NCBI GenBank assembly: GCA_030615365.1
Contig: JAUWZM010000109.1
Coordinates: forward strand, 1-7,180
DNA length: 7,180 nt
From: Candidatus Aerophobota bacterium
GTDB taxonomy: Bacteria; Aerophobota; Aerophobia; Aerophobales; B3-G15
Direction: 5' to 3'
The notes under the pieces are model-generated. The model had not been told where the DNA came from. It worked only from the letters and a program-made list of their open reading frames with translations, and ran no database searches. Both the position numbers and the translations under genes were made by a program. Shown here piece after piece: positions 158 through 7,054 of this stretch (the stretch's first letter is position 1; every line of letters starts with the position of its first letter).

Positions 158-2209
158 TTGGCTGAGGCAGCTAAATTAGCTGTAAAAGAATTTGTCTCCA
201 AATATGGCGGAGGAGGAAAAGAAGAATTCATCAAAAAGCACATCCTTGAAAATTTCTATGCCTTTGAGCTGATGATGGCACCTTACGCAATTGGACACTT
301 AAAAATGTCTTTTCTCCTGGAAGAACTTGGTTATAAACTCCAAAAGGACGATAGGTTTAAACTTCACCTTACCAATACCTTAGGGATGGAGGAACTTGCT
401 CAAACTGAACTTCCCGGTACGGAATCCCTATCTGAAGAATCTCGTTCAGCAACCGAAATTAAGAAAGAGCAGCCTATTTTGGTAATACTTGGTAACCCGC
501 CATATTCTGGAATATCAGCCAACAAAGGGAAATGGATAGAGGATTTACTGAAGAAAGGTTATATTCGCTCCGATAAAAGTAAAGATGAAGGATATTATAA
601 AGTTGATGGTAAACCTTTGGGTGAGAGGAACCCTAAATGGCTTCAGGATGATTATGTAAAGTTTATTCGTTTTGCCCAGTGGAAAATTGACCAGGCGAGT
701 GAAGGGGTTTTAGGATTCATCACTAATCATAGTTACCTTGATAACCCAACTTTCAGAGGTATGCGGCAGTCGTTGATGGGTAGCTTCGATGAGATTTACA
801 TCCTCGATTTGCACGGCAACAGCTTGAAAAAAGAGAAATGCCCTGATGGTTCAAAAGATGAAAATATCTTTGACATCCGACAGGGAGTGGCTATTACTCT
901 CTTTATAAAAAAGAAAGGGGAGAAGAAAGAATGCAAGGTTTATCACTCAGAAATTTGGGGATTGAGAGAAGTAAAGTATGAATGGCTTTTGGAAAATGAT
1001 ATAAAAACAATAAAAAAATGGCAAAAAATCTCACCGAAATCTGAATTTTATCTTTTTATTCCAAGAGATGAAGAACTTTTGGAAAGGTATAAAAAGTATC
1101 CAAGAATAACGGAAATATTCCCTCTTAATGGCGTTGGAATGACAACAGCCAGAGATCGGTTTGTTATAGATAGAGATAGAAAAACGTTAGAGAATAGAAT
1201 ACGCCTTTTCAAAAATAGCAAATATTCAGATGATGACCTCCATGTATTCTTCCAGATAAATAAAAAGAAAGGCTGGAGTATTAGAAAAGCCTGGAATATG
1301 CTTCAGCCAATTTTAGATTCAGATTTAGATAATTTTATCTTACCAGTTCTTTATCGACCTTTTGATGTTCAGTGGATTTTTTATCACGATTCTGTTGTTT
1401 GGCGAACGGTAAAAAGAGTTATGCGTCATATGATGCAGGAGAATTTGGGGTTAGTTACAGTTAGACAAGTTGCGGAAGGTATTTTTGATCATGTTTTTGT
1501 AACTGGCAATATTATTGAAAGTCGTGTAACGCTAAGCAACAAAGGAATTGCATTTCTCTTTCCTCTCTACGTCTACCCCGATACAAACAAAAAAGACCTA
1601 TTCAGCCAGGCGAAAAAGCCAAATGAAAGACAACCCAACATTAATCCAGAGCTTTTTGCTACCCTTTCCGAGGTTTATAAAAAAGAACCAACACCGGAGG
1701 AAGTTTTTTATTACATCTATGCTATTCTCTACTCCAATATCTACCGAACTAAATACGCCGAGTTTCTAAGAATAGATTTTCCAAGAATTCCCTTTACAAA
1801 AGATTACAAATTATTTAGTAAGATGGCTGAATATGGAAGAAAGCTGGTTGATTTACATTTGCTTAAATCAATAGAATTTAACCCACCCATTGCTAAATTT
1901 CAGGGCAGGGGTGATAGTAAAGTTGAAAGATTGAGGTATGATGAGGAGGAAAAGCGTATTTATATCAGTCAAGCTCAATATTTTGAGGGGATTACAAAAG
2001 AAGTGTGGCAGTACCAGATCGGTGGTTATCAGGTTTTAAATAAGTCGCTGAAAGATAGAAAGGGAGAAAGATTATCTCTTGAAGATATAAAGCACTACTG
2101 CAAGGTTGTAACATCCTTAGAAAAGACTATAGAAATCCAAAAAGAAATAGATGGTTTGTATTTTGAAGTTGAAAAGGGAATTGTTGAATTTGCAGAAGTC
2201 GTAAAATAA
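158..2209 (+). CDS. Type ISP-family adenine-N6 DNA methyltransferase/specificity polypeptide, 5'-truncated
   Basis: The product resembles the methyltransferase and target-recognition half of single-chain type ISP restriction-modification enzymes, which normally carry nuclease, SF2 helicase, methylase and specificity domains in one long chain. Visible here are an N-terminal helix segment typical of the region after SAM motif I (residues 1-60), catalytic motif IV NPPY at residues 113-116 (adenine-N6 class), a segment near residues 186-206 containing FITNHSYLDNPTFRG, and a C-terminal specificity region ending with YQIGGYQVLNKSLKDRKG near residue 640. The TTG at 158 is only a formal start. In-frame codons before it (140-157) read P-G-T-L-T-F, the tail of motif I (normally D-P-x-x-G-T-L-T-F), and an in-frame TGA at 131-133 closes the frame. 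Nuclease, helicase and the Asp of motif I are absent, so activity is doubtful. Family assignment is confident; treating it as a 5'-truncated relic is an inference. Confidence 0.85.
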   Translation: MAEAAKLAVKEFVSKYGGGGKEEFIKKHILENFYAFELMMAPYAIGHLKMSFLLEELGYKLQKDDRFKLHLTNTLGMEELAQTELPGTESLSEESRSATEIKKEQPILVILGNPPYSGISANKGKWIEDLLKKGYIRSDKSKDEGYYKVDGKPLGERNPKWLQDDYVKFIRFAQWKIDQASEGVLGFITNHSYLDNPTFRGMRQSLMGSFDEIYILDLHGNSLKKEKCPDGSKDENIFDIRQGVAITLFIKKKGEKKECKVYHSEIWGLREVKYEWLLENDIKTIKKWQKISPKSEFYLFIPRDEELLERYKKYPRITEIFPLNGVGMTTARDRFVIDRDRKTLENRIRLFKNSKYSDDDLHVFFQINKKKGWSIRKAWNMLQPILDSDLDNFILPVLYRPFDVQWIFYHDSVVWRTVKRVMRHMMQENLGLVTVRQVAEGIFDHVFVTGNIIESRVTLSNKGIAFLFPLYVYPDTNKKDLFSQAKKPNERQPNINPELFATLSEVYKKEPTPEEVFYYIYAILYSNIYRTKYAEFLRIDFPRIPFTKDYKLFSKMAEYGRKLVDLHLLKSIEFNPPIAKFQGRGDSKVERLRYDEEEKRIYISQAQYFEGITKEVWQYQIGGYQVLNKSLKDRKGERLSLEDIKHYCKVVTSLEKTIEIQKEIDGLYFEVEKGIVEFAEVVK

Positions 2210-2291: not shown

Positions 2292-3272
2292 ATGGATACC
2301 ATTGGGAGAATTGTCTTTCAAATTGGGGTGATTGCTGCCAGCATTGTTCCTCTCATTTGGGTTCTCGGCGTTGCCTTTCTTGGAAAAGCAATTGAAAAAG
2401 GCAAAAAGTCCTCACAGGAGAAAACAAAGAAGGATTTGACAAAAATAAAGAAGCAATTTGAGAAAGCAGAGAAGGACTTCAAAGAAGCTAAAAAAACCGC
2501 AGAATCTTCAAAAATCGAAAAAGCACAGAAATCACTTGCCCAAATTAGCAAACAAAAACAAAAATCTCAGAAAAACCTTCAAAGAATCAAAAAAAAATAT
2601 GAACTTCTTACGATTAACAAAGCAGTAGTTATTCCCTTTTTCGGATCAGTTGCGTTAATAATACTGGGAAAAATTATAGAGATAAATTCCTTGGGATTAA
2701 ATATTAGAGCAGTTATACTAATCGTCTCTGCTATTACTCTTTTCCTATTATTTAAAAGGATCTTTGGAATTATGGGTCTCATTCAAGAACTTTCAATCCC
2801 TTCGGAAGAGGCGAGCTTCAAGCAGATGGCGGAAGCGCTTAAATATGCTCTTGCTGAGCATAAAAAGGAGAAAGAGCCAGAAGTTAAATTGGATTTTACG
2901 ACCTCTTTTCCTCGGCAAGCAAAGGTGAGTGAAGAAATTAAAGTCGAATTTAAGCTTATCTTGACCAAAGGCAAATTCCTTGAAGATACAGAAGTTTGGT
3001 TTTTTGCTCCACCTGGATTTGACTTTTCCGGTGGCTCAAGAAAATGGCACCAGAACAAGGACCACGATATACCAAATGCTTTAACAACCAATGTAGAGAT
3101 TGGTAATATGCAAAAGGGGATGAGTGATCCTGCAGAAATCACAATTATAATCCCTGGAAATCCAGGGAAGTACCCAATGATTTATTGTATATATGGTAAG
3201 GGCTATTACAGCGGAGACGTCCATATCGAAGATGCGTTTGTCGTTACCGAAGAAAGCGAAAGTGAAAGATAG
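2292..3272 (+). CDS. Membrane protein with long Lys-rich coiled coil and C-terminal beta-rich domain, function unknown
   Basis: I do not recognise this 326-residue protein. It has an N-terminal hydrophobic helix (about residues 6-31), a strongly basic, Lys/Glu/Gln-rich helical stretch that should form a coiled coil (about 33-108), two further membrane helices (about 111-129 and 138-155), and a soluble C-terminal region (about 199-320) with alternating hydrophobic residues and Gly/Pro turns, suggesting a beta-sandwich. By the positive-inside rule the basic coiled coil should be cytoplasmic, and with two more membrane passes the C-terminal domain would be cytoplasmic too. The start is well supported: AAGGAG at 2279-2284 lies 7 nt before ATG 2292. 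It sits 82 nt after the truncated methylase and directly before a HicB remnant. A role as a defence accessory is possible from position alone, but no motif supports it. Confidence 0.75.
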   Translation: MDTIGRIVFQIGVIAASIVPLIWVLGVAFLGKAIEKGKKSSQEKTKKDLTKIKKQFEKAEKDFKEAKKTAESSKIEKAQKSLAQISKQKQKSQKNLQRIKKKYELLTINKAVVIPFFGSVALIILGKIIEINSLGLNIRAVILIVSAITLFLLFKRIFGIMGLIQELSIPSEEASFKQMAEALKYALAEHKKEKEPEVKLDFTTSFPRQAKVSEEIKVEFKLILTKGKFLEDTEVWFFAPPGFDFSGGSRKWHQNKDHDIPNALTTNVEIGNMQKGMSDPAEITIIIPGNPGKYPMIYCIYGKGYYSGDVHIEDAFVVTEESESER

Positions 3273-3275
3273 GGG

Positions 3276-3447
3276 CATATCTCTACCAAAATAAGCTCTG
3301 GTTATATGGGTCAGGTTAGTGGAATGGCCAGAGGTAATAACTGAAGGAAATACTTTAGAAGAATGCAGGGAAATGCTTAAAGATGCTTTGTATGAGATGA
3401 TAAAGGCATACCAGCAGCAGGAAAAAGAAATTCCCATTTTTATTTAA
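3276..3447 (+). pseudogene. HicB-like antitoxin remnant, frameshifted and lacking a start
   Basis: From GTG 3319 to TAA 3445-3447 one frame encodes 42 residues beginning VEWPEVITEGNTLEEC and continuing with an amphipathic helix and KEIPIFI. This matches the HicB partial-RNase-H-fold pattern (x-E-x-P-x-V/C-x-T-x-G-x-T-L-E-E-A/C). Immediately upstream, but one frame off, 3294-3317 reads S-S-G-Y-M-G-Q-V, the strand that normally precedes it. Dropping the single A at 3318 joins them as GYMGQV-VEWPEV, in perfect register with the usual GYxAEVPELPGV. Upstream of that the frame runs into the stop of the preceding gene (3270-3272) with no start codon. HicB normally neutralises the HicA mRNA interferase; no hicA-like gene is visible beside it. 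It is probably a decayed copy, although a sequencing indel could explain the frameshift but not the missing start. Confidence 0.6.
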
Positions 3448-3880: not shown

Positions 3881-3901
3881 TTAAGGTGGAAGGTGTTCTT
3901 G

Positions 3902-4987
3902 ATGAATAATCCAAAACAAAACATATCCTCCAAGAAATATCTGGACACTGATTTGGATGAATTTTATTTTCAATGGCACATTACTGAAAGATGCAATCTC
4001 CGGTGTATCCACTGCTATCAAGAAGGGTATAATATCCGGTCTGAGTTTTCTCTTACTCAACTTAAAAGAATTGCCGATCAGGTTATCCTTGCTTTAAAGA
4101 AGTGGCATAAGAGGGGGAGAATTGCTTTAACAGGTGGAGAGCCTTTTCTGAAGAAAGAGCTATTTCCCCTTATGGAGTACCTGGAACAAAACGAATATAT
4201 CTGGAGAATTGGAATACTTACTAACGGAACCCTGATAGATGAAAAAATAGCGGATAGATTGACAACTTTTCAAAAATTGTATTATATCCAGATTTCTCTG
4301 GATGGTGCGTCAGAAGAAACCAATGATCTTATCAGGGGAAAGGGATCCTATAAGAAAGCCATAGATTCTTTCAGACTCCTTCATCGGAAAGGGATAAATA
4401 CACGGCTGATGTTCACTGTGCAAAAAAGGAATCTTCAGGAGGTTCCTTCACTGATTGATCTTGCTATAAAAGAGAAGATAGATACTCTTACTATTGAGAG
4501 GTTTGTACCGGAGGGGAAAGGTTCTGAAATTAAAGATTGGTTTCTTACAAAAGAAGAGGTTCATAACCTATTTCAATATGTTTCCTGGCGTTCCGATACA
4601 GAATATCAAAAAAAGACTCCTCTGAAAATATTAAAGTATCGAACCCTATGGGCGAATATTGACCCTGAAAGAGCAAAGACTACTGATGTTCCTTTGGAAA
4701 TTGACTTAGGTGGTATGTGCTCTATCGGAATAGATAGCCTTACCATACTCCCAGATGGCACTGTGCTTCCCTGTCGGAGGTTGCCCATTCCTATTGGAAA
4801 CCTAAAAAACGATTCTATCTTTAAAATATGGTATACTTCAGATCTCCTATGGAAAATCAGGAACAAGAATAATCTGAAGGGTAAATGCAATGGATGTGAT
4901 TTAATTCCCCGGTGCAGCGGGTGTCGAGCAACAGCCTATGCTATAACTGGCGATTATCTAGCAGAGGACCCACAATGCTGGAAGTAG
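3902..4987 (+). CDS. Radical SAM/SPASM peptide maturase
   Basis: This 361-residue enzyme should cleave S-adenosylmethionine reductively and use the resulting radical to modify a ribosomal peptide in the cytoplasm. The radical SAM 4Fe-4S site is C31-x3-C35-x2-C38 (CNLRCIHC), with the SAM-binding GGEP motif at 78-81. The C-terminal SPASM domain is complete: C273-x12-G286-x4-C291, then C329-x2-C332-x5-C338-x2-C341 and C359, enough to hold two auxiliary clusters. This layout is that of PqqE, anaerobic sulfatase maturases and sactipeptide/ranthipeptide synthases. ATG 3902 is preferred over the in-frame GTG at 3893 because GGAAGGTG (3888-3895) is properly placed only for the former; TTG 3899 remains possible. 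It lacks a fused RRE domain, and the next gene supplies one. The adjacent Cys-rich precursor makes a thioether-forming role the leading inference, but C-C or other crosslinks cannot be excluded. Confidence 0.93.
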   Translation: MNNPKQNISSKKYLDTDLDEFYFQWHITERCNLRCIHCYQEGYNIRSEFSLTQLKRIADQVILALKKWHKRGRIALTGGEPFLKKELFPLMEYLEQNEYIWRIGILTNGTLIDEKIADRLTTFQKLYYIQISLDGASEETNDLIRGKGSYKKAIDSFRLLHRKGINTRLMFTVQKRNLQEVPSLIDLAIKEKIDTLTIERFVPEGKGSEIKDWFLTKEEVHNLFQYVSWRSDTEYQKKTPLKILKYRTLWANIDPERAKTTDVPLEIDLGGMCSIGIDSLTILPDGTVLPCRRLPIPIGNLKNDSIFKIWYTSDLLWKIRNKNNLKGKCNGCDLIPRCSGCRATAYAITGDYLAEDPQCWK

Positions 4988-5271
4988 ATAAAGTATTGCA
5001 ATTGAAAGAGGAGTTTATTCTCTATAAACTGGAAGTGGATAAGGGAATGTTTTGGTTGTTCAATATTGAAAACGGAGATTCATTCAAACTAAACGAAACC
5101 TCTTACCACATATTATCTTTGTTTGACAGGAATAGGAGTATAGGAGAAATATACAAGTACATTCTTGATAACTATTCTAATACAGATTCCGATGTAGTTT
5201 TAAAAGATTTTGAGGAATTGATGGAGAGAATGAAAAAAGAAAATATATTTGAAGAAAGGAGGTGTGAATAA
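4975..5271 (+). CDS. PqqD-like RiPP recognition element protein
   Basis: This 98-residue protein matches the PqqD fold, a small winged-helix module that binds the leader of a RiPP precursor and delivers it to the radical SAM enzyme. The diagnostic pattern is visible: two beta strands with an aromatic/aliphatic core (WLFNIENGD near residue 25), then the FKLNETSYHILSLFDRN segment where the Asn-Glu-Thr turn leads into the first helix, then SIGEIYKYILDNY and a final amphipathic helix with VLKDFEELMERMKKENIF. ATG 4975 is chosen because AGAGGA (4963-4968) lies 6 nt upstream and the resulting protein has family length. The longer frame from 4912 adds residues encoded entirely inside the SPASM domain of the preceding gene. 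It overlaps that gene by 13 nt, and its TAA overlaps the precursor ATG (TAATG), showing translational coupling. Confidence 0.88.
   Translation: MLEVDKVLQLKEEFILYKLEVDKGMFWLFNIENGDSFKLNETSYHILSLFDRNRSIGEIYKYILDNYSNTDSDVVLKDFEELMERMKKENIFEERRCE
5255..5262 (+). promoter_or_regulatory. Strong Shine-Dalgarno site of the precursor peptide gene
   Basis: AAAGGAGG, continuing into TG, ends 8 nt before ATG 5271. It is the best match to the 16S rRNA 3' end in the operon; the last two genes have no clear site. This decides the start of the small gene and fits a need for more substrate than enzyme. Confidence 0.75.
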
Positions 5272-5423
5272 TGGTGGAAGAAAGAGACAGAGAGTCTCGC
5301 CATGTTTACAAGAAACCTGTGTTTGTAAAAGAGAAGGGGCTTACCTTCCCAAAGGAGATCATAGAAAAATTCAATGGTAGGCGGTTTTGTGTCCAATGCA
5401 GCAGTTGTCATGGGTGTAAATAA
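5271..5423 (+). CDS. RiPP precursor peptide with C-terminal CX2CX2CX2C core
   Basis: This small gene encodes 50 residues from ATG 5271 to TAA 5421-5423. The N-terminal part is highly charged (MVEERDRESRH). A middle segment, VYKKPVFVKEKGLTFPKEI (residues 12-30), has the KP-x-V/I and LTFP character of leaders that pair with an RRE protein. The C-terminus FCVQCSSCHGCK places Cys at 40, 43, 46 and 49, exactly three apart, with RR at 37-38 just before it as a plausible processing or modification boundary. Evidence that it is real: the strongest ribosome binding site in the operon, TAATG coupling with the PqqD-like gene, a position directly after the maturase and recognition genes, and no overlap with a better frame except its last 14 nt. 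The same Cys spacing occurs in the sactipeptide thurincin H, but there the thioether acceptors follow the Cys residues, whereas here only Lys follows. An alternative is a small metal- or Fe-S-binding peptide. Confidence 0.85.
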   Translation: MVEERDRESRHVYKKPVFVKEKGLTFPKEIIEKFNGRRFCVQCSSCHGCK

Positions 5424-6255
5424 GGATGTATCCAAAATAGAAACTGCAATTCAACGTAGCGTAATCTCTCTGAGTCAAATAGCCAAGGACTTTATTCTCA
5501 AGGGGATTGAACTTACCCGAATTTGCAGAGTAGCGGTACTTTTGAAAGAAAGTGGGGTAAATCCTGCTACCATTTTTTACCATAAATTAGCCGAAAAATG
5601 CATTGATATGCAAAGAGATGATGGCGGCTGGACGGATGTAGTAGAGACGATGTGGTGTACTGCTCTTCTAAATCTTTTTAGTGAACTCTCAAATCCTGTA
5701 AAGAAGGCATTTAAGTGGCTAAGGAGCCAGAAGTGTAACGGAGGCGGTTGGGGTAAATCCATAAGGGATTCCGCTCGTATTCCTGTAACCGGACTCCTCC
5801 TATATCTGCTTCCCCAACTCTCATCCGATGAGGATCTTAAGTGGCTGGAAGGTAAATGGTATCAGGAAGGGAAGCTTGAACCGCGCTTGACCTATAAAGC
5901 GGCTCTTACTTTGATGGCGTTTCGGAAGAATGACTATTATCCGGAAAATCAGGGTCTTATTTCAAAGACTGTTCGCTGGCTATCTGGTCAACAGAATGAT
6001 GACGGGGGATGGGGTCCGTGGAAAGGACATCCAGTTGGAAGTGACCCCTGGTGCACGGGAATCGATATGGTGGGACTTCTTCAGTATTCTGATAAAATCT
6101 CTCAAAAAGTATTATGGAAATCCTTGAAATGGCTTAGAGAGAAACAGCTTCCGAATGGGCTTTGGCCTTATCATTATATTGAGGAAGGGAGCAGTTGGGC
6201 TCTATATGCTTTGGCCATGGGATATAGTTTATTAAATGGAAGAGAAATTGACTAG
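5410..6255 (+). CDS. Small alpha/alpha-toroid protein with prenyltransferase/squalene-cyclase repeats
   Basis: The 281-residue product consists of helical repeats carrying QW-type turns: QRDDGGW (residues 68-74), QKCNGGGW (107-114), QQNDDGGW (194-201) and KQLPNGLW (246-252). These define the alpha/alpha-barrel shared by squalene-hopene cyclases, protein prenyltransferase beta subunits and related toroids. It is less than half the size of squalene-hopene cyclases, and I see no DxDD acid motif, so terpene cyclisation is unlikely. D212-x2-C215 after the third turn and H255 after the fourth lie where farnesyltransferase beta subunits hold zinc (D-x-C and H), a loose analogy only. ATG 5410 lies inside the last codons of the precursor gene and has no ribosome binding site, implying coupling. 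In-frame starts at GTG 5389 and ATG 5374 would lengthen the protein by 7 or 12 residues into the precursor core. Context suggests action on the modified peptide; the reaction is unknown. Confidence 0.8.
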   Translation: MGVNKDVSKIETAIQRSVISLSQIAKDFILKGIELTRICRVAVLLKESGVNPATIFYHKLAEKCIDMQRDDGGWTDVVETMWCTALLNLFSELSNPVKKAFKWLRSQKCNGGGWGKSIRDSARIPVTGLLLYLLPQLSSDEDLKWLEGKWYQEGKLEPRLTYKAALTLMAFRKNDYYPENQGLISKTVRWLSGQQNDDGGWGPWKGHPVGSDPWCTGIDMVGLLQYSDKISQKVLWKSLKWLREKQLPNGLWPYHYIEEGSSWALYALAMGYSLLNGREID

Positions 6256-7054
6256 AGAGTTAGAAAAAATAATCATTAAGAATATAAGAGAAATTCCTGA
6301 AGTCCCATTATCGTTTTTACTCTCAGGAGGGATTGATTCTTCTCTTGCATTAGCAATTCTTCATAAAGTATATCCTGAAGTGTCAATTTCAACATTCACT
6401 CTGGCTAAATCAAATGATTATCCAGACATAGTTTTTGCTCGTAAAATAGCCAATTTATTTGAGACAGAACATAATGAGATAGTTCTCTCTGATGAGGAAT
6501 ACAGCAAATTTCTCGGCGAATATAATAAAGTCAAACGATATGATTTTAAGGGTGATATAAATGTATATATCCTTTGCTGTTTTGCTAAAACATTTAGTAG
6601 TATAGTTGTTACTGGTGATGGGGGAGATGAGTGTTTTGGTGGATATTGGCTTCATAAGTATCCCTTGGGGTATAAGGAGGCTGGAATGATTAAATCCTTC
6701 GAAGAAATCCATCTCACCCCAAGAAAATACTTGAGGGAAATGGTTAATATGGGTTTTAGGGACTTTTTATACAAAGAAAAATCACAAAAAGAAGATTACG
6801 ATACTGTATGGGAATATTTTGTGAAGATTATGGCGCCAAGACATCTTGCTCCTTTATTGCATACTGCAAAGGTCTTAAACATTGAGATTTATACTCCACT
6901 CTTTTCTGAAAGACTCACAAATTTTATGAGAAATCTTCCGTATAGGGAAAGAGTTGGGAGAAAGATAGAAAAGGAGTTGGCTTCAATGTATTTGCCTAAA
7001 TCAATCGTAGAAAGAGAAAGTATAGGATTTGATGTAGCACTAGGAGCCTGGTGA
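6236..7054 (+). CDS. Stand-alone asparagine-synthetase-like ATP-dependent amide ligase
   Basis: This 272-residue protein corresponds to the synthetase half of class B asparagine synthetases, which adenylates a carboxylate and lets an amine attack it. The PP-loop LSGGIDSS (residues 29-36) and the second ATP-site signature TGDGGDECFGGY (126-137) are intact. The N-terminal glutaminase domain with its Cys nucleophile is absent, as it is in function for lasso-peptide cyclases and beta-lactam synthetases, which form intramolecular amides. In the C-terminal motif, family members read R-x-K-x-G-F with a catalytic Lys; here it is R-E-S-I-G-F, and the protein stops 10 residues after this motif (LGAW), where relatives continue for tens of residues. 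A one-base shift at the end would add only about 11 codons. ATG 6236 overlaps the toroid gene by 20 nt with no clear ribosome site. An isopeptide- or amide-forming role on the precursor is inferred from context; reduced or altered activity is possible. Confidence 0.85.
   Translation: MEEKLTRELEKIIIKNIREIPEVPLSFLLSGGIDSSLALAILHKVYPEVSISTFTLAKSNDYPDIVFARKIANLFETEHNEIVLSDEEYSKFLGEYNKVKRYDFKGDINVYILCCFAKTFSSIVVTGDGGDECFGGYWLHKYPLGYKEAGMIKSFEEIHLTPRKYLREMVNMGFRDFLYKEKSQKEDYDTVWEYFVKIMAPRHLAPLLHTAKVLNIEIYTPLFSERLTNFMRNLPYRERVGRKIEKELASMYLPKSIVERESIGFDVALGAW

Follow-up and report, generated by a model that had tools for sequence, protein, structure and literature searches.

Several described systems that make modified peptides share parts of their gene set with the cluster treated here. 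Among the ribosomally synthesized and post-translationally modified peptides (RiPPs), the sactipeptides and ranthipeptides, which are defined by Cys thioethers to an alpha or to a beta/gamma carbon, have in common with it a radical SAM (S-adenosylmethionine) enzyme with a SPASM domain, a RiPP recognition element (RRE) and a Cys-rich core, whereas the lasso peptides share with it an RRE with a YxxP leader and an AsnB-type, amide-forming enzyme. Pyrroloquinoline quinone (PQQ) and mycofactocin show the same combination of a PqqD-type RRE and a radical SAM/SPASM enzyme, and in the ACGX system (TIGR04340) the substrate is a small Cys peptide with ACGX repeats. In a stretch of 7180 bases from a Candidatus Aerophobota bacterium (contig JAUWZM010000109.1; in the following, the window), which stops 126 bases past its last gene, five genes that span positions 3902-7054 bring such elements together with a squalene-cyclase-like toroid protein. 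The five genes very probably make, jointly, one small and heavily modified peptide. Our preferred reading (probability about 0.72) is that they represent a new RiPP family, the product of which would be crosslinked by the radical SAM enzyme, amide-modified at its C-terminus by the toroid and the ligase and, in relatives, glycosylated.

The five open reading frames (ORFs) all lie on the + strand and each of them overlaps or abuts the next, as a first-pass annotation of this DNA had claimed. They encode, in order, a radical SAM/SPASM peptide maturase (3902-4987, 361 aa, with a GTG at 3893 as a possible alternative start), a PqqD-like RiPP recognition protein (4975-5271, 98 aa, overlapping the radical SAM gene), a precursor peptide (5271-5423, 50 aa) with four Cys, a YxxP leader motif and the C-terminal core FCVQCSSCHGCK, an alpha/alpha toroid with the class II terpene-cyclase fold (5410-6255, about 281 aa, overlapping the precursor gene, with 5374, 5389 or 5410 as start candidates), and an AsnB-type amide ligase that lacks the glutaminase domain (6236-7054, 272 aa). 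The family assignments, which the annotation had read from motifs, are backed for all four enzymes by Pfam scores above the gathering cut-offs (in brackets), namely 89.2 bits for Radical_SAM (29.5), 41.8 for SPASM (21.5), 39.9 for PqqD (PF05402; 23.4), 36.7 for SQHop_cyclase_C (26.1) and 99.7 for Asn_synthase (PF00733; 21), and Pfam likewise shows no N-terminal GATase domain in the ligase, in agreement with its description as glutaminase-less. In an alignment of 11 rows, the CX3CX2C motif of the radical SAM enzyme (residues 31/35/38) is invariant, and so are its cysteines 273, 291, 329, 332, 338, 341 and 359. Nevertheless, the enzyme falls short of the NCBIfam cut-off for each of the 25 families listed; its best match, the ACGX-system model, covers residues 20-361 of 361 and yields 196.8 bits against a cut-off of 400, i.e. 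well short of membership. Chance ORFs can be ruled out, since homologues of the genes recur with identities to the window of 45-57% for the radical SAM enzyme and 33-64% for the toroid. An Rfam scan of the window gave no match.

For the precursor peptide, a Pfam search is empty at E<=1, and the sole NCBIfam match is insignificant (E 0.13). A search with the window peptide recovered 27 close matches (itself among them), and a profile built from 14 precursor sequences gave 1105 matches at E<=0.1 among 1892 candidates. In the 130 best-scoring of these 1105, the core reads C-x-Q-C-x-x-C-H-x-C, with the four Cys, the Q and the H invariant. The second core position is usually V, R or L, the second Cys is followed by S (127/130) and then by S or G, the last Cys is preceded by G (128/130), and the core ends on R (101 sequences) or K (18), together 119 of the 130. 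Asp and Glu are absent from 128 of the cores; the two exceptions carry them either at a variable site or within an appended tail. A [YW]xxP leader motif is present in all 130 sequences, at a distance to the core of 27 residues in 119, 28 in ten and 34 in one, so that a leader of this type stands beside a protein that scores as an RRE with PF05402. PMC12710340 reports W/Y/LxxP/L/I as the sequence recognised by RRE groups, PqqD, McjB, FusE and StsC among them; the YxxP leader of the precursor fits this pattern and hence agrees with recognition by a PqqD-type RRE. A precursor with a conserved leader and core thus lies, recurrently, beside modifying enzymes, which is the general hallmark of a RiPP and supports the proposed RiPP pathway of radical SAM enzyme, PqqD-like protein and precursor. 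The near-constancy of the core suggests that the product is one defined molecule, a signal or a cofactor, rather than a diversifying antibiotic.

Recurrence of the gene set was examined at 16 loci in 15 genomes, of which 12 loci were obtained by searching the GTDB species genomes with an alignment of toroids, one is a second copy in a Thermoplasmatota genome and three derive from genomes of the class of one of the hosts (G008). Twelve of the 15 genomes, all of them metagenome-assembled (MAGs), are assigned to bacteria (Levybacteria, Deltaproteobacteria/Desulfobacterales, Bacteroidales and KSB1) and archaea (Methanophagales, Thermoplasmatota and Methanoperedens), and host assignments may be wrong in single cases. 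Some of the contigs are short (8.6 kb for L001), others are long (299 kb for L004, 173 kb for L030 and 123 kb for L002). The toroid, being the query, is found at all 16 loci; it is accompanied by an AsnB-type ligase at 15 (all except L030), a GT4 glycosyltransferase at 14 (split in two pieces in L005), the precursor at 14, the PqqD-like protein at 13 and the radical SAM enzyme at 12, once as a 46-aa end fragment. Where a radical SAM, PqqD or precursor gene is missing (L007, L009, L010 and L011), the contig starts inside the cluster, and the two loci without a GT4 gene, L003 and L030, lie on contigs that end there. In L009 a short radical SAM tail that escaped the search is readable behind a stop codon where the contig begins, and the L011 genome carries a radical SAM and a PqqD-like gene at the end of another contig. 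The recurrence that the annotation had named as its check is thus found in both domains, and toroid and ligase are regular members of the related clusters, an AsnRS-like protein standing in for the ligase at the sixteenth locus. The proposed set of five does recur, but the usual set is larger, with the GT4 glycosyltransferase and often a large metallohydrolase.

The system is rare and patchy, as indicated by the low counts in the toroid scans (7/389, 1/389, 1/58 and 1/1 genomes, each including the centre genome). A scan anchored on the radical SAM enzyme, in which about five candidates were scored per genome, gave matches at E<=1e-95 in 5 of 389 genomes. Four of the five also carry the toroid; the fifth, G106, has no toroid match, and the contig of its radical SAM gene stops before the gene does. 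In three genomes with a toroid (G007, G009 and G260) the contigs begin inside the cluster, which explains why no radical SAM match was obtained there. The same scan in the class of G004 recovered 1 of 345 genomes, G004 itself. The toroid had no match on known phages or plasmids and none in IMG/VR, where one weak (31%) match to the radical SAM enzyme was obtained.

The ligase of the window carries an SGGIDSS PP-loop and GDGGDECFGGYW, with the GDGGDE motif, and scores 79.8 bits on the model of glutamine-dependent asparagine synthetases (TIGR01536), the cut-off of which is 267.1. This short form is shared with L001-L005 and L029 (the L003 copy ends early, close to the contig end), whereas nine relatives (L006-L012, L031 and L032) have a full-length form that starts with MC[G/A]ICG. 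In the one full-length protein scanned for it, that of L008, a GATase domain is present, and with 329.9 bits this protein passes the cut-off for glutamine-hydrolysing asparagine synthases. As the cores are almost devoid of Asp and Glu, the acyl donor is likely to be the C-terminal carboxylate, which mostly belongs to R or K, and since the nine full-length ligases begin like glutaminases, a carboxamide formed with glutamine-derived ammonia is favoured over amide closure. Of the two outcomes first suggested, a core closed or capped by an amide bond, capping has therefore become the more likely one and closure the less likely. In L030, an AsnRS/AsnA-like protein (PF00152, 95 bits; below the NCBIfam cut-off) lies beside the toroid in place of the ligase, which implies that acyl-adenylate chemistry may be what is required, although such an AsnRS paralogue could also be a self-immunity gene. 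That locus (L030 3-5473, on one strand) also encodes an amidohydrolase-GNAT fusion, together with the first part of what may be a B12-binding radical SAM protein, both domains of which score below the Pfam cut-off. At another locus (L032 418-10797), HD dGTPase-like, PHP, AAA and second radical SAM proteins lie beside the toroid and the GT4 glycosyltransferase.

The toroid has the fold of class II terpene cyclases without their conserved catalytic Asp. In squalene-hopene cyclase, drimenyl diphosphate synthase and MstE this residue is part of a DXDD motif, whereas the toroid column aligned with it (column 85, mapped via a weak 7-bit segment; 137 rows, 131 distinct) holds E (42), V (37), P (29), I (10), L (10), T (6), S (2) and one other residue. 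Unlike these cyclases, the toroid is a single 281-aa domain with conserved residues of its own, namely R126, D127, K170, H214 and H262. Terpene cyclase activity is disfavoured by the variability of the aligned position.

The components of the cluster have diverged together to different extents. In a mirror-tree comparison, made without L007, L009-L011 and L031, the radical SAM enzyme correlates with the PqqD-like protein (0.90, n=12), the precursor (0.94, n=12) and the GT4 glycosyltransferase (0.84, n=9), and the toroid with the AsnB-type ligase (0.74, n=11), each with a permutation p of about 2e-4. Toroid and ligase thus resemble a cassette that can be exchanged on a core of radical SAM enzyme, PqqD-like protein, peptide and GT4. 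The clearest case of exchange is provided by L001 and L002, where a radical SAM enzyme, precursor and GT4 like those of L008 are joined to a toroid and ligase like those of the window. These two loci, from assigned Levybacteria and Deltaproteobacteria, are 84-93% identical in the radical SAM enzyme, toroid, ligase, GT4 and precursor and 72% in the PqqD-like protein, which suggests transfer, and the family appears to move horizontally.

Relatives of the cluster carry further genes. A protein of about 1000-1100 aa with a metallo-beta-lactamase (MBL) fold and weak similarity to RNase Z is encoded at 8 of the 16 loci (a partial 667-aa ORF being present in L011), in L004 with TPR-like repeats that score below cut-off, and the two copies in Thermoplasmatota genome G005 (C22, L005; C71, L029) differ in that one has this protein and the other an accessory protein of about 600 aa. 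The latter occurs at 5 of the 16 loci; it is read as HD-like only because H and HD motifs are conserved across an alignment of five rows, one of them partial. Its predicted structure is of low confidence (pLDDT 61), with no Foldseek match at E<=0.001 and no relative of known structure in a sequence search at E<=0.1, and the only Pfam hint, for the L001 protein, is a methyladenine-glycosylase family (18.3 bits against a cut-off of 25). A small P-loop protein, sometimes non-adjacent, is found at seven loci and an N4/N6 methylase-family protein at four. Three of these methylase-family proteins (L008 4171-4911, L012 3959-4672 and L031 709-1440) show, on inspection by eye, DGPYG in place of the usual DPPY, and their substrate may thus not be DNA. 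The 600-aa protein had no match in plasmids or phages and the MBL protein none in plasmids; relatives of the accessory proteins elsewhere were found in 2 of 192 genomes and, besides G008, in 1 of 183, in neighbourhoods that were unremarkable by eye. One distant MBL relative lies on an IMG/VR contig (L046 4907-8200), where a C5 DNA methylase and a protein of the phage-integrase family are encoded no more than 4 kb away.

Genes for restriction-modification (R-M) and other defence functions recur around the clusters. L001 and L003 have type IIG genes in their flanks, and PADLOC, run on flank proteins chosen by eye, recognised an HmaB/HmaC pair at L029, a type III methylase at L010, a type I specificity subunit at L004, a type I restriction fragment at L032, a DruE-like protein at L031 and an OLD/AriA-like ATPase at L005; the radical SAM gene of G106 adjoins ResIII and methylase genes. 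A shikimate dehydrogenase upstream in L006 and a UvrD helicase upstream in L002 fit such a context poorly. With 179 matches to the Eco57I and N6_N4_Mtase families in 59 Mb (16 genomes), an R-M methylase lies within 10 kb in 5 of 17 flanks (the 16 loci plus the G106 radical SAM gene) against 0.52 expected (Poisson 2e-4), or in four against 0.49 (0.0016) without G106, where the families were picked after seeing the data and four in-cluster methylases and the window's own gene were left uncounted. The latter (window 158-2209) is a relative of Type ISP/IIG restriction-methylases (PADLOC PDLC03610, 1.1e-176); of the 1096 model positions it covers 368-1072 only, and the N-terminal part is not seen in the 157 upstream bases of the window. 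It is followed by a 326-aa protein (2292-3272) that contains hydrophobic segments and one rich in Lys and Glu and that matches no Pfam or NCBIfam family above cut-off, and by a 42-aa UPF0150 fragment (3319-3447; 22.8 bits, under the Pfam cut-off of 27.3), which we take to be HicB-like.

The preferred reading starts from the gene set, its recurrence, the conservation of core and leader, the toroid fold and the co-divergence, and from these we infer chemical steps and a function. The PqqD-like protein would bind the YxxP leader, and the radical SAM/SPASM enzyme, to which it presents the core CxQCSxCHGC(R/K), would install thioether or carbon crosslinks, both steps being established behaviour of these families. 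The ligase would then activate the C-terminal carboxylate of the core as an acyl-AMP and form an amide, for which a carboxamide made with ammonia is the likeliest candidate, and the toroid would pair with the ligase as a substrate chamber or co-catalyst; in relatives, the GT4 glycosyltransferase and variable enzymes would act next. Several points weigh against this reading. The 130 precursors are the best-scoring of 1105, which biases the invariance of the core upward, and in an alignment of the 14 distinct peptides of window and loci the one from L030 has a diverged core (CFGCTNCNCN). The window shows no GT4 gene, its record ending where the downstream genes of the relatives would lie, and no peptidase, B2-type included, was recognised among the ORFs, which were viewed and in part scanned by hidden Markov models. 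Accessory proteins of nucleotide or DNA type in the relatives have no clear place in RiPP biosynthesis, the location of L001 on an 8.6-kb contig of a MAG means that misbinning could mimic transfer, and possible exporters in two hosts, an ABC ATPase with an ABC-2 permease downstream of GT4 (L006 10803-12739) and a MATE-family protein upstream of the radical SAM gene (L012 581-2023), make export, and hence an antibiotic role, possible there. Finally, the radical SAM enzyme and the ligase co-diverge weakly (r=0.18, p=0.12), the split into short and full-length ligases lowering this value, and the correlations of toroid with GT4 (0.69, p 4e-4) and of radical SAM enzyme with toroid (0.48, p 0.001) show that the cassette split is not clean.

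These last values bear on the view that toroid and ligase are passengers and have nothing to do with the peptide. Their stronger correlation with each other than with the radical SAM enzyme, and their seeming exchange between cores, would fit such a view, but we regard it as very improbable, because the two occur together in 15 of the 16 loci, the genes overlap in the window and the toroid is kept even in the divergent L030 cluster. It is likewise improbable that the ligase is a lasso-type macrolactam synthetase that yields a lactam-closed peptide. The PqqD-like RRE, the YxxP leader and the AsnB-type enzyme are common to lasso pathways (PMC12710340), and the L008 ligase obtains 139.4 bits on the lasso cyclase model NF033535; this lies below its cut-off of 525, the cores without Asp or Glu offer no side-chain acceptor as in lasso rings, and a B2-type peptidase is among those not recognised. 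Moreover, lasso cyclases have inactive glutaminase-type domains, unlike the nine homologues that start with MC[G/A]ICG. Somewhat less improbable, yet still doubtful, is a peptide that serves as a metal or haem ligand, or is finished by the enzymes into a redox cofactor as in PQQ or mycofactocin. All 130 cores contain the c-type haem motif CXXCH, the four Cys and the His could coordinate a metal in a constant core, and the radical SAM enzyme scores 175.6 bits (cut-off 500) on the model of the haem b synthase AhbD, with which, however, SPASM proteins in general cross-match; no dehydrogenase partner was noticed, nor a signal peptide or haem-lyase gene, neither of which was specifically searched for.

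The strongest competitor, which we consider possible though clearly less likely than the preferred reading, is a sactipeptide- or ranthipeptide-type bacteriocin with unusual accessory genes, secreted against competitors; its chemistry would overlap with that of the preferred reading and its function would differ. A radical SAM/SPASM enzyme, an RRE and a small Cys-rich peptide are what such a bacteriocin would need, the radical SAM enzyme resembles several NCBIfam peptide maturases (all below cut-off), and the odds are raised by the transporters beside L006 and L012. Bacteriocins usually diversify, whereas the core is nearly constant across the assigned phyla, and no transporter was noticed by eye at the other 14 loci, where ORFs were partly scanned and many contigs are short. 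The same transporters lower the odds of an intracellular role, namely that the peptide is a signal or cofactor for exchangeable metallohydrolase effectors (the MBL-fold, RNase Z-like and the HD-like proteins of the same operons) and the DNA-methylase-family protein, in a RiPP-dependent immune or stress system common to bacteria and archaea and located in defence islands; we hold this to be unlikely. Lanthipeptide clusters, too, lie near R-M genes (PMC12715929), which fits a bacteriocin, and such proximity alone does not make a defence system.

A candidate new class within radical SAM-dependent RiPP biosynthesis is thus supported at the level of sequence, with putative chemistry and function. 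If true, it would add an undescribed RiPP family with more than 1000 precursors in public sequence, in genomes assigned to bacteria and archaea, suggest a role in peptide chemistry for a stand-alone squalene-cyclase-like toroid, and pose the question which single molecule stays unchanged across both domains while its tailoring enzymes are swapped. As in the annotation, no named class with this gene set was found: none of the NCBIfam, Pfam or PADLOC models scanned captures the set, and the open-access literature searches brought up no paper that describes it by title and abstract (subscription papers and bioRxiv lay outside the search). The name 'SynChlorMet' was not met in the open-access literature searched, papers that mention 'ACGX' look unrelated by title, and none of the clusters in one section of PMC9062424 matches. 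Set against the known systems, the cluster differs from the ACGX system in its single constant CxQCSxCHGC core, its toroid, its ligase and, in relatives, its GT4 glycosyltransferase, and from the sactipeptides and ranthipeptides in that a toroid, an AsnB-type ligase, a discrete PqqD-like protein and a constant core are found together. Compared with lasso peptides, it has a radical SAM enzyme and, in 128 of 130 cores, no acidic acceptor, and no B2 peptidase was recognised among the partly scanned ORFs. PQQ and mycofactocin offer further parallels in a glycosyltransferase and in MBL-fold proteins, both of which are seen here in relatives, whereas the four-Cys core, the toroid and the AsnB-type ligase are what set the present cluster apart from them.

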